Below are positions 31,188 to 50,131 of a stretch of 60,296 bases of DNA, one piece after another (the stretch's first letter is position 1; the number at the start of each line of letters is the position of its first letter). This DNA is from Oscillospiraceae bacterium (GTDB taxonomy: Bacteria > Bacillota > Clostridia > Oscillospirales > Oscillospiraceae), in assembly GCA_017479425.1 (NCBI GenBank), contig JAFVCD010000010.1, positions 1-60,296 of the forward strand. Direction: 5' to 3'. Made by a program: the position numbers and the translations under genes. The notes below the pieces were generated by a model, which made no database searches, had not been told where the DNA came from, and saw only the letters and a program-made list of their open reading frames with translations.

Positions 31188-33689
31188 ATGTCTGAAGGTC
31201 CGAAATATATAACCGTCCGCGGCGCGCGGGTGCATAATCTCAAGAGCATCGACGTCGATATCCCGCTCGGAAAGCTCGTCGCAATCGCCGGCGTTTCCGG
31301 CTCCGGGAAATCCTCACTCGCGCTCGGAACGCTTTACGCCGAGGGCTCGCGCCGGTATCTCGACGCGCTCTCGACCTACACCCGCAGGCGCATCACGCAG
31401 GCCTCGAAGGCGGAGGTGGACGAAGTAAAGCACGTTCCCGCCGCCCTCGCTCTCCACCAGCGCCCCGGAATCCCCGGAGTTCGCAGCACCTTCGGCACGG
31501 CGTCTGAGCTTCTCAACTCCCTGCGCCTTCTCTTCTCCCGCCTCTGAAGTCACGTCTGCCCGAACGGTCACCGCTGTCCGCCCTCGATGGACGTCGCGCT
31601 GATGCTTCCGACGAGATGTCCCGAATGCGGAGTTGAATTCTACGGCCCGGGCGCTGAGGCGATGGCGTTCAACTCTGACGGCGCGTGTCCGACCTGCTCC
31701 GGTACCGGAGTTGTGCGCGAGGTGGATATGTCCACCATCGTGCCGGACGATTCTCTCACCATCGACGAGGGCGCGGTGGCGCCGTGGCAGAACCTCATGT
31801 GGTCGCTGATGAAGGATATTGCCCGCGATATGGGCGTTCGCACCGACGTACCGTTCCGCGACCTCACCGATAAGGAGAAGGATATCGTTTTCAGCGCTCC
31901 CGCCGAAAAGCACCACTTCTTCTACAAAAACGAAAAGACCAACGTCGCCACCGAGATGGATTTTACCTATTACAACGCCGTCTACACAGTTGAAAACGCG
32001 CTCTCCAAGGTCAAGGACGAGAGCGGTATGAAGCGCGTTGCGAAGTTTCTCAGAGAGTGCGACTGCCCCGATTGCGGCGGCACGCGCCTCTCGGAAAAGG
32101 TGCGTTCGACGACCCTCGCCGGTAAAAATCTCGCGGAGGCGACCGCGATGACGCTCTCCGAGCTTATTCCGTGGGTGAAAAACGTACCTGATACGCTTCC
32201 TCTCGACCTTCGTCCGATGGCGGAGAGCATCGGAGAGTCATTTCTTGATAATGCAAAGCGCCTCATCGACCTCGGCCTCGGCTATCTGAGCCTCGACAGA
32301 GCCTCCTCCACTCTCTCCACCGGTGAGCGCCAGCGCGTTCAGCTCGCGCGGGCGGTGCGAAACGAAACCACCGGAGTTCTCTATGTGCTCGACGAGCCGT
32401 CCATCGGTCTGCATCCATCGAATATTGACGGGCTTATGGAGGTCGTGGAAAGTCTGATCGCCGACGGCAACTCGGTAGTTCTCGTCGACCATGACGTGCG
32501 CGTGCTGCGCCGCGCCGATCACATGATAGAGCTTAGTCCGCTCGCCGGCGCTGACGGCGGCACGATCCTCGCGCAGGGGACTGTCAGCGACGTCGCGGCG
32601 GCGCCAAATTCAAAGATCGCGCCGTTTATCCTCTCCGACGGCGGAGCTGTAAGCCGCAGAAAATGCCCGCGCGAGGAGCTTTTCAGCCTCGGCGCGATCG
32701 AGATGGAAACAAGCCCGATCCACACAGTTCATCCGCTCAGCGTGCGTATCCCGAAGGGCCGCCTCACCGCTGTGACCGGAGTTTCCGGCTCCGGCAAAAC
32801 TACGATGGTGCTCGAGAGCCTCATTCCCGCGCTGAATGCAAACGCGGCTGGAGAAAAGCTCCCCGGCCACATTGTTAAAATCACCGCCGACGGCATTTCG
32901 CGCGCAAATCTCATCGACGCCTCGCCCATCGGCGTGAACATCCGCTCAACAGTCGCAACGTACAGCGGCGTGCTCGACGAGCTGAGAAAAATGTACGCCT
33001 CGCTCGACTCCGCAAAAGCGATGAAGCTCGGCGCCGGCGCGTTCAGCTACAACACCGGCTCTCTGCGCTGTCCGACCTGCGACGGAACGGGTCAGATCTC
33101 GCTCGACGTGCAGTTTCTGCCGGATGTGACCATAACCTGCCCCGACTGCCGCGGAGGGCGCTACGGCGACGCGGCGTGGGAGATAACCCTCACCCCGAAG
33201 GGCGCGGAGAGAGGCTATTCGATCACCGAGCTTATGAGCATGACAGTCTCCGAGGCGCTCAGGCTCTTCAAGGGAGTCAAGCGAATCGCGGAGAAGCTCA
33301 ATGTGCTCGAGGGTCTCGGGCTCGGCTATCTCACCCTCGGCGAGGACACTCCGGCTCTCTCCGGCGGCGAGGCGCAGAGGCTGAAGCTTGCAAGCGAGAT
33401 GGGAAAGAGCCAGTCCGACAGCGTTTTCGTATTCGACGAGCCGACAATCGGACTTCACCCGCTGGACGTTCAGGTGCTGCTCGGGGTGCTCTCGCGGCTT
33501 GTGGACGCCGGCGCGACTGTGCTTGTCATTGAGCACGACCTCGACCTCATTTCAAGCGCCGATTACGTCATAGACATGGGTCCGGGCGGCGGCGCCGAGG
33601 GCGGCGAAATAGTAGCCTGCGGCACTCCCGAGGAGATAGCAGCAAATCCCGGCTCGATCACCGGAAAATACATTAAAGAGGTGCTGTAA
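31188..33689 (+). pseudogene. UvrA-like ABC ATPase with an in-frame TGA
   Basis: An 833-codon UvrA paralog of the short kind (like UvrA2/DrrC proteins), interrupted by TGA at 31545-31547. The frame is intact on both sides, and the break falls where a glycine belongs: FSRL-*-SHVCPNGHRCPPS. GGA to TGA is one base change. Two ABC modules are present: Walker [10 protein letters not shown] near residue 30 and GVSGSGKTT near 530, with signatures LSTGERQRVQLARAV and LSGGEAQRLKLASEMG. Zinc-type CPEC...CPTC and CPTC...CPDC pairs lie in each half. A restart at ATG 31587 would lack the first Walker A. TGA ends other genes here, so general recoding is excluded. It may be a true nonsense mutation, a sequencing error or read-through. 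Confidence 0.75.
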
Positions 33690-33703
33690 AGTACAGCACC
33701 TCT
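33677..33703 (+). terminator. terminator palindrome of the UvrA-like gene, first copy
   Basis: A 27-bp palindrome, AGAGGTGCTGTA-AAG-TACAGCACCTCT, that includes the stop codon. An exact second copy is at 33867-33893, on the other side of the 163-bp insertion. Only the second copy is followed by the T-run, so the original terminator was split by duplication. Confidence 0.85.
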
Positions 33704-33866
33704 AAGACTGTAGACAAAAAGGAAACGCGTTGGATAAAGGAGGCGGGGATCTGTGAAGGGGCCGGCCAAGAGGCCCCTTCACGTCGCATAATCCGCCCGC
33801 AGGCGTCATATTTTGCGCTCTCTGAGTGCAAAATATATTCGATGCGGAGACTTTGTCGACGCATTG
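33704..33866 (+). mobile_element. 163-bp terminator-inserted element, copy A
   Basis: A non-coding unit of 163 bp, found again in opposite orientation at 49945-50107 with 10 mismatches and no gaps by my count. The outer ends carry imperfect inverted repeats sharing GTAGACAAA. Inside are an 11-bp stem GTGAAGGGGCC/GGCCCCTTCAC and a 12-bp stem (ATATTTTGCGCT with AGTGCAAAATAT, one G-U). It sits between two exact copies of a 27-bp terminator palindrome. No transposase is in it; it would be a non-autonomous (MITE-like) element. A short open frame shared by both copies has no ribosome site and looks incidental. Confidence 0.8.
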
Positions 33867-33893
33867 AGAGGTGCTGTAAAGTACAGCACCTCT
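33867..33893. terminator. terminator palindrome, second copy, with T-run
   Basis: Exact duplicate of 33677-33703, followed by TTTTCTTTT. It also serves the convergent fructokinase operon, which ends at 33911. Confidence 0.85.
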
Positions 33894-33910: not shown

Positions 33911-34843
33911 TTATCTATAAATAGCCTCGACCTCGCTCTTTTCGGGCATCTGCATGAGCGCGCCGCGCCGCGTTGTGACTATATACGCCGCGTGATTAGC
34001 AAAGCGCAGGGCTTCGTGCAAATCAAGCTCGAACCCGCGTTCCAGTACGGCGTTCAGCATACACCCGCAGAAGGTATCGCCGGCACCGGTTGTCTCGATA
34101 ACGCCGCCTCTTTTGCAAGCCGGCTCAAATGCCGAAGCCGCGCCGAGGAAGGCGTAGCTCCCATCAGCGCCCGCCGTTATCGTAAGCAGCCGCAGATTTG
34201 GGTAAACCGTCTGGAGCTTTCTTCCGGCATAGTCATAGTCGCGCTCGCCGATGAGGAACTCAACCTCGTTGTCGCTTATCTTTGCGATATCTGCGCAGGA
34301 AAGCCCGTATTCCATCGCAGCTCTTGCCTCCTCCGGACTCTGCCAGAGGTTAAGCCTCAGATTCGGATCGAAGCTCAGGAGCGCTCCGGCGCGTTTTGCC
34401 CGCTCCACAGCCTCAACGGTGGCTGTTCTGACCGGCTCTGCGGTCATTGAGAGCGTTCCGAAGTGGAAAACGCGGCACGAATCAACTATATCGCCGTTGA
34501 CCTCGCCGGCTCTGAGCATCATGTCTGCGCCCGGGTCGCGGTAAAAGCTGAAGGCTCTGTCTCCGCCCGGGAGAGTGTGGATGAAAGCGAGCGTGGTCTT
34601 TACCCTCGCGTCGCGCATAAGGCCGCCGGTATCGATTCCGAGAGAGTCGAGGGCGGAAACGAGGCTGTCGCCGAACATATCCTGCCCGACCTTGCCGATA
34701 AAGGCGCACCTTTTGCCGAGCTTTCGCAGCATCGCCAGCACGTTTGCCGGAGCGCCGCCTGGGTTCGGCGTAAATTTGCCGTCCGCCTCCGTGAAGTCGA
34801 TAAGTATCTCACCGAGGGCGGCGACGTCGTAAATCCTGCTCAT
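33911..34843 (-). CDS. scrK: fructokinase (PfkB family)
   Basis: A 310-residue ribokinase-fold sugar kinase. Signature 1 is GGAPANVLAMLRKLGKRCAFIGKVGQD near residues 28-54, split by variable residues; signature 2 near 250 is TTGAGDTFCGCML with the catalytic Asp. It converts fructose to fructose-6-phosphate or a related reaction. Last gene of the PTS operon, overlapping ptsI by 4 nt. Substrate is inferred from the sucrose-type context. Confidence 0.85.
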   Translation of the reverse strand: MSRIYDVAALGEILIDFTEADGKFTPNPGGAPANVLAMLRKLGKRCAFIGKVGQDMFGDSLVSALDSLGIDTGGLMRDARVKTTLAFIHTLPGGDRAFSFYRDPGADMMLRAGEVNGDIVDSCRVFHFGTLSMTAEPVRTATVEAVERAKRAGALLSFDPNLRLNLWQSPEEARAAMEYGLSCADIAKISDNEVEFLIGERDYDYAGRKLQTVYPNLRLLTITAGADGSYAFLGAASAFEPACKRGGVIETTGAGDTFCGCMLNAVLERGFELDLHEALRFANHAAYIVTTRRGALMQMPEKSEVEAIYR

Positions 34844-44680: not shown

Positions 44681-44709
44681 TTTCTGAAACCTCCATAGAT
44701 ATTGCTCAC

Positions 44710-45008
44710 CTTTTTCGGTTGCCGCGCAAGCGGCGAGAAAAAGGACTTGGATTAAATATAATAATCGCGTATGCGATTATTATAACATAACTGCGGAGCG
44801 GTTATGTTATAATTTGTCATCTTTTTCGGTTGCCGCGCAAGCGGCGAGAAAAAGGACTTGAATTAGATATAATAATCGCGTATGCGATTATTATAACATA
44901 ACTGCGGAGCGGTTATGTTATAATTTGTCATCTTTTTCGGTTGCCGCGTAAGCGGCGGGAAAAAGGACTTGGATTAGATATAATAATCGCAGCGGCGATT
45001 ATTATATC
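44710..45008. repeat. three tandem 111-bp hairpin modules
   Basis: Units begin at 44710, 44821 and 44932, exactly 111 bp apart; the third stops early. Each contains three palindromes: GCCGC..AAGCGGC within a TTTTTCGG/GAGAAAAAG frame, TAATAATCGC/GCGATTATTA, and ATAACATAAC/GTTATGTTAT. Units 1 and 2 differ at only a few positions. In unit 3 the second hairpin's loop has changed from GTAT to AGCG while its arms stay paired, and the third hairpin is missing. The array fills the region between the divergent GT4 and malY genes. Confidence 0.9.
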
Positions 45009-45068
45009 ACATTGTGATAGTATTTGCAACTTCGCTTAAAACAATGTATAATACCTTCGGGTGATTAT

Positions 45069-49920: not shown

Positions 49921-49944
49921 ATCCCACGGCGAAAGCCGTGGGAT
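49921..49944 (+). terminator. terminator palindrome of the deacetylase, first copy
   Basis: A 24-bp palindrome, ATCCCACGGC-GAAA-GCCGTGGGAT, with a GAAA loop. An exact second copy is at 50108-50131, on the far side of the 163-bp element. Confidence 0.85.
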
Positions 49945-50107
49945 CAATGCGTAGACAAAGTCTCCGCATTGAACATATTTTGCGCTTTGAGAGCGCAAAA
50001 TATGACGCCTGCGGGCGGATTATGCGACGTGAAGGGGCCTCTTGGCCGGCCCCTTCACAGATCCCCGCCACCTTTATCCAACGCTTTTCTTTTTTGTCTA
50101 CAGTCTG
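49945..50107 (-). mobile_element. 163-bp terminator-inserted element, copy B
   Basis: Same length as copy A (163 bp) and in the reverse orientation. The 11-bp GGGGCC stem is identical. The second stem is a perfect 12-bp ATATTTTGCGCT/AGCGCAAAATAT, where copy A has one G-U pair and a different loop, so structure is preserved. It lies between the two exact 24-bp terminator palindromes. Confidence 0.8.
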
Positions 50108-50131
50108 ATCCCACGGCGAAAGCCGTGGGAT
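50108..50131. terminator. terminator palindrome, second copy
   Basis: Exact duplicate of 49921-49944, followed by TTTCTG. It also serves the convergent small membrane protein gene. Confidence 0.85.

Follow-up and report, generated by a model that had tools for sequence, protein, structure and literature searches.

The target duplication that a transposase leaves is, as a rule, a constant mark of that enzyme. The IS1182-family elements IS1272 and TnSha1 of Staphylococcus insert into hairpins that vary in sequence and include several terminators, and for IS1272 a deletion of the hairpin was proposed, according to the available portions of the two reports (PMC4923244, PMC5678879). The 163-bp element analyzed here resembles them in having hairpin targets of varying sequence, and the transposase family is the same by name. 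However, in those portions IS1272 and TnSha1 delete or replace the hairpin with no target duplication, whereas the 163-bp element duplicates the whole hairpin. Beside the deletion pathway of IS1272, the model of Wan et al. 2017 includes a pathway b in which the whole hairpin is duplicated, drawn as a possibility (PMC5678879, Fig. 13, from the available portion). Both the targeting of hairpins by the IS1182 family and the duplication of the whole hairpin, the latter as a hypothetical pathway, are already published as far as these portions of the reports go. As an observation, whole-hairpin duplication was not met in the literature surveyed; curated insertion-sequence databases, which were outside the scope of that survey, may record such repeats. 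The original prediction had regarded a duplication of structure-defined length as unusual. The length does vary with the hairpin, but the DDE family was already known, from the same portions, to target hairpins (PMC4923244, PMC5678879).

Two other groups of elements share features with the one studied. Bacterial MITEs are also short and present in many copies, mostly intergenic, with terminal inverted repeats and target duplication; unlike what is seen at the 163-bp element, whole-hairpin duplication is not mentioned for them in the available part of their description (PMC10969869). IS elements with REP palindromes as insertion sites also use palindromic targets located outside genes, but, in the part of the report that could be consulted, their target is a repeated sequence family, whereas the targets of the 163-bp element are mutually unrelated (PMC1525189).

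The window, that is, the whole stretch of DNA that was analyzed (60,296 nucleotides), contains two copies of the element. Copy A (33704..33866, plus strand) lies between two identical copies of a 27-bp palindrome (33677..33703 and 33867..33893), and copy B (49945..50107, minus strand) between two identical copies of a 24-bp palindrome (49921..49944 and 50108..50131), which confirmed the layout first noticed, 163 bp between identical palindromes in both cases. The two palindromes are unrelated to each other. The elements themselves, found on opposite strands, have the same length and are 94% alike in an ungapped comparison, again as first noticed. The left end of copy A is AAGACTGTAGACAAA (mostly CAGACTGTAGACAAA in other copies) and its right end is TTTGTCGACGCATTG; both ends of the element share 5'-CA and GT(A/C)GACAAA. 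An internal hairpin with an 11-bp stem and an 8-nt loop is located at 33753..33782 of the plus strand, and a second one, with approximate limits, at 33808..33838 of the same strand. The fold of the strand 33677-33893 gave a z of -9.9 against shuffles.

Copy A, which is also present in the relative G049, is located between convergent genes, a UvrA-like gene upstream (Pfam UvrA_DNA-bind; 31587..33689, plus strand) and a PfkB-family carbohydrate kinase gene (33911..34843, minus strand). The UvrA-like open reading frame ends at 33689, and its stop codon is, as had been noticed, inside the first palindrome. Copy B lies between convergent genes for a polysaccharide deacetylase/SLH protein and a glycosyl hydrolase 3 when a 105-aa open reading frame that overlaps the element is disregarded. 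The insertion had been thought to preserve a terminator on both sides. There is a hairpin on each side, but at copy A a T-rich tract comes after the second hairpin and not after the first, so there is no complete terminator on each side after insertion; the complete terminator of the locus was displaced by about 190 bp. Because the T-rich tract follows the far hairpin only, transcription of the upstream gene probably continues across the element as far as that hairpin. Separately, long inverted repeats join the two ends of the window, which is an entire contig (302-1416, 2860-4578 and 57840-60296); of the five longest, all except one are 92-99% complementary.

The genome that contains the window is a draft of 1.77 Mb in 44 contigs, 84% complete, and several of its contigs end inside copies of the element. 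It gave 66 BLAST matches, which correspond to 36 places of at least 60 bp in the stretches examined. A DNA search found no element DNA in 39 other relatives. In an exact-pattern scan of a collection of species genomes, which may leave out the window's own genome, 34 stretches were recovered, and every one belongs to one of two Oscillospiraceae assemblies from goat gut, RGIG3191 and RGIG1539. These are G049 and G050, both draft assemblies, with 55 and 67 matches; identical places suggest that they are the genus members G041 and G040, which were outside the search of 39 relatives. In aligned pieces longer than 1 kb, the stretches of the window's own genome are 94.7% identical to G049 and 86.5% identical to G050. 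Matches of at least 60 bp numbered 116 in the stretches of the three genomes (36, 37 and 43), and after dropping 17 that had no usable flank, 99 copies remained (32 from the window's genome, 29 and 38). The element is short, has no transposase gene, occurs in many copies and carries terminal inverted repeats; it is related to the IS1182 family and, as a MITE-type element, is non-autonomous. Group IIC introns and HUH elements, which use hairpins or terminators but are not known to duplicate the target, were set aside as candidates for that reason, and a Rfam scan gave a single match, below threshold.

The flanks of these copies were compared by local alignment of the two 45-bp sequences, requiring a score of at least 14 and a distance of no more than 8 bp from the element. 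Direct repeats were found in 77 of the 99 copies (24/32, 25/29 and 28/38 by genome), and 3210 mismatched left/right pairs of flanks from the same genomes, used as a chance control, reached a top score of 12. Of the 77 repeats, 73 were palindromic with a score of 8 or higher, and the palindrome differed by locus; in a set of 4000 random 45-mers the median score was 4, the 99th percentile 8 and the highest value 14. The expectation that further copies would also be bounded by paired palindromes was borne out to this extent, while 22 copies failed the test. With flanks duplicated in 77 of 99 copies, hairpin replacement of the IS1272 type is not what was found. In the 73 palindromic cases the duplicated repeat measured 16-34 bp, and the correlation between palindrome length and repeat length was 0.66. 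The start of the repeat was the start of the palindrome in 52/73 and its end was the end of the palindrome in 45/73, so the predicted coincidence of duplication and palindrome is exact in these and not in the rest. At least five of the nine nucleotides just outside one hairpin were T in 58 of the 73, compared to 9.6% of random positions. The element mainly targets hairpins and duplicates them entirely, and the length of the duplication follows that of the hairpin. Simple ORF calls placed 47 copies in tandem, 37 in convergent and 10 in divergent arrangements, with four more at an edge and one within an ORF; the inter-ORF gaps in the same stretches amounted to 338 tandem, 179 convergent and 198 divergent.

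We propose, with a probability of about 0.86, that the 163-bp element is an IS1182-type passenger. An IS1182-family DDE transposase supplied in trans would move it, selecting extruded terminator-type palindromes by shape and not by sequence. The target would be a cruciform, and the two 3' ends would join at the 5' feet of its opposite hairpins. The hairpin of each strand would then stay with one flank, gap filling would make both double-stranded (we infer the order of joining and repair), and the duplication would equal the length of the hairpin. In hairpin-free DNA the same machinery would leave a 7-8 bp repeat. This mechanism is pathway b of Wan et al. 2017, hypothetical in the available portion of that report, for which natural cases with empty sites are described here (PMC5678879). 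Alternatively, the sequence feature read by the transposase might be the symmetry of a linear palindrome, which it would cut at the edges without extrusion, as the coincidence of repeat boundaries with palindrome starts (52/73) and ends (45/73) would also allow. We consider this unlikely, because no sequence common to the palindromes was recognized by eye and repeats of 16 to 34 bp are too variable for a fixed protein ruler acting on linear DNA. The original prediction of a target recognized by shape agrees with palindromes that vary by locus; as to its form, cruciform or single-strand hairpin, the cruciform is what we infer.

The loop of the hairpin is inverted between the two flanking copies in 4 of 69 pairs exactly, and by eye also in L262, as would result from a flip of the entire palindrome. 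Inverted loops were seen between relatives as well (in a comparison that counts the hairpin of copy B twice). The places with an inverted loop are window 49921-49944 versus L196 666-720, L204, L208, L214:6707, L233:81 and L262. Two unoccupied orthologous hairpins also show the inversion, and for this reason loop inversion was set aside as a footprint of the mechanism.

The 22 copies that failed the strict repeat test were classified by reading their printed flanks. Six resemble diverged or partly lost pairs, eight have a hairpin on one side (a weak one in one case), one has two different hairpins, and four have no hairpin and show exact junction repeats of 7, 7, 7 and 8 bp. Two others show nothing recognizable (one of them has a truncated end) and the last is a wrongly delimited remnant. 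Seven of the 22 are below a hairpin score of 8 on both sides, including all four with 7-8 bp repeats, which suggests that these short repeats are the ordinary stagger where a hairpin is absent. The one-sided cases are relevant to the form of the target. If this were a single-stranded hairpin, exposed on the lagging strand or in a transcription bubble, and the opposite strand were copied later, one-sided hairpins such as those of 8/99 copies would be expected whenever one strand is lost. In addition, a gene 3' end, where transcription may expose strands, is no more than 60 bp away in 76 of the 84 copies that have a neighboring gene 3' end. A hairpin on one strand, however, does not on its own offer points of attack on the two strands at a distance of one palindrome, and the two repeats are identical letter for letter in 45 of the 73 palindromic cases. 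A single-stranded target is thus possible and rather doubtful, and the double-stranded cruciform is preferred.

Orthologous places were sought in the other two genomes within stretches of up to 20 kb around the copies, and an informative partner was available for 50 of the 99. Nine automatic comparisons, at eight sites, found an empty site with one hairpin. Among them is the site of copy B, empty in G049, which provides the allelic empty sites with one palindrome that the original prediction called for. Six further empty comparisons came from clean duplications in which the hairpin had diverged so far that it no longer scored as the same one; across the 15 empty comparisons from clean duplications, a second hairpin copy never reached the threshold. 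Eight more came from copies that are not clean duplications, and their hairpins were not counted. One further clean empty case, L096 versus L189, is clear by eye; the L215 site (the same as L096), automatically flagged as 'other gap 584', was read as empty by eye. The rows 'long, no element' joining L159, L194 and L217 are occupied sites with gaps of 232-254 bp, in which the test missed the motif string. At one site, L155 versus L183, the relative has neither element nor hairpin. The site of one G049 copy corresponds to window 44750-45022, inside an element-free region of three tandem 111-bp units with terminator-like palindromes (44701..45033). No other unoccupied place with several palindromes was encountered, and here they are explained by the tandem repeat.

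The empty sites also have a bearing on whether the hairpins belong to the element itself, as the ends of a composite repeat. The presence of repeats on both sides in 77/99 copies would fit this explanation, but it is contradicted by the single hairpin retained at empty sites, and the hairpin varies by locus while near full-length elements stay 89-96% identical to copy A; we regard it as extremely improbable.

The window's own genome, 84% complete, gave no match to an IS1182 transposase in searches with PF13751 and NF033551, so the autonomous partner was not found there; the PF13751 search was confined to this genome. The IS1182 model matched at E <= 0.001 in 20 of 34 genomes of the genus and exceeded the curated cut-off in 8 of the 34. 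The original prediction had asked for a full-length relative with the same ends and a nuclease or transposase gene, and elements with a transposase and the same end on one side were found. L051 and L052 (1648 bp) have one end identical over 15 bp to the left end of the element, CAGACTGTAGACAAA, and each sits between exact hairpin copies; L146 has the same 15 bp at one end, as judged by eye. The NF033551 (IS1182) scores of L052, L051 and L054 were 436, 440 and 381 bits (cut-off 270), and Pfam DDE_Tnp_1_6 and DDE_Tnp_1 exceeded their cut-offs in the three proteins. The sequence shared by the 163-bp element and the genus elements is limited to about 15 bp at the left end, and the right ends match less (about GTCGACAAA). 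Nine of 30 genus loci were tested for hairpin repeats, and exact hairpin copies of 21-31 bp bounded seven of them; for the other two, L050 and L070, no ends with hairpin copies were found. Three contigs of G050 terminate inside an IS1182 element, of which they keep the end part, and the two that were inspected have the same end, with 0 and 1 mismatch, beside a hairpin. As judged from these shared ends, an IS1182-type element is the probable parent of the 163-bp element.

Like behavior is seen in a wider clade. Whole-hairpin duplication was found in 25 of the 62 IS1182 loci tested (7/9 in the genus, 9/23 in the order and 9/30 in the phylum), and 32 of the 62 had no hairpin repeat or had ends that the search did not resolve; the order and phylum loci are best-scoring matches, with some elements represented by several copies from the same genome. 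In the order, four of the nine duplicating loci are copies in G232, two different hairpins occur at 3/23 loci (four with L259, by eye), and another terminal repeat occurs at 5/23, with a 7-bp repeat in two of these; the remainder count among the loci whose ends the search did not resolve. L260 and L271 belong to another IS1182 group, with ends GCGCTGTTGACAAA, 7-bp repeats and no hairpins. Besides the nine duplicators, the phylum loci comprise one with two different hairpins and 20 with none or with ends not resolved. The duplicated hairpin of full-length elements is 20-35 bp long. Six plasmid elements, hand-picked from listings of named records, showed exact hairpin duplication in five cases (20, 24, 20, 24 and 30 bp) and two different hairpins in one. 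One of the six is annotated as ISBspe1, a 1560-bp IS1182 element of the Alkalihalophilus pseudofirmus OF4 plasmid pBpOF4-01; exact 20-bp hairpin copies flank it, as here, but it has a transposase gene, which the 163-bp element of the window does not. Two S. aureus plasmids carry IS1182-family matches with 22-23% identity to the transposase of the genus; these were not equated with IS1272.

In a tree of 57 transposases, which has long branches and a warning of false joins and does not include IS1272, 23 of the 24 duplicators group in one clade of 33 (support 99/98), together with four members that have two different hairpins and six with no assigned class. The remaining duplicator, L304, is placed outside, and the five loci with another terminal repeat belong to a distinct clade with six members. 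The duplicator label needs 10 changes on the tree when rows without a class form their own label. On balance we lean to the view that one clade of IS1182 transposases, which spans several orders of the phylum, makes a stagger set by the shape of the DNA, about 7 bp in ordinary DNA and the whole hairpin at a cruciform; the length of the duplication would be read from the target, and insertion would keep gene ends usable.

Elements between two different hairpins were observed at L011/L167, L253, L254, L258, L259, L287 and L307. Two different hairpins at one element suggest recombination between copies of the element. The few elements in this condition (those loci with the exception of L259), together with flanking copies that sometimes differ, could also be taken to mean that insertion occurs beside one hairpin, which is later copied across by recombination or repair. 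We find this very unlikely, since hairpin duplication occurs around different elements in different hosts and recombination between two element copies also predicts two different hairpins. Duplication at the time of insertion, by gap filling at an extruded palindrome, is the reading retained.

Natural support is thereby provided for a pathway that was drawn as a possibility in 2017 (PMC5678879). Since the length of the duplication follows the local hairpin, insertions found in nature reveal which hairpins were usable as targets and where their feet lay. Whole-hairpin duplication would explain the long and variable repeats around IS1182 elements, and the elements present on Bacillus-type and Lactococcus plasmids are candidates for testing the recognition of cruciforms by a DDE enzyme.
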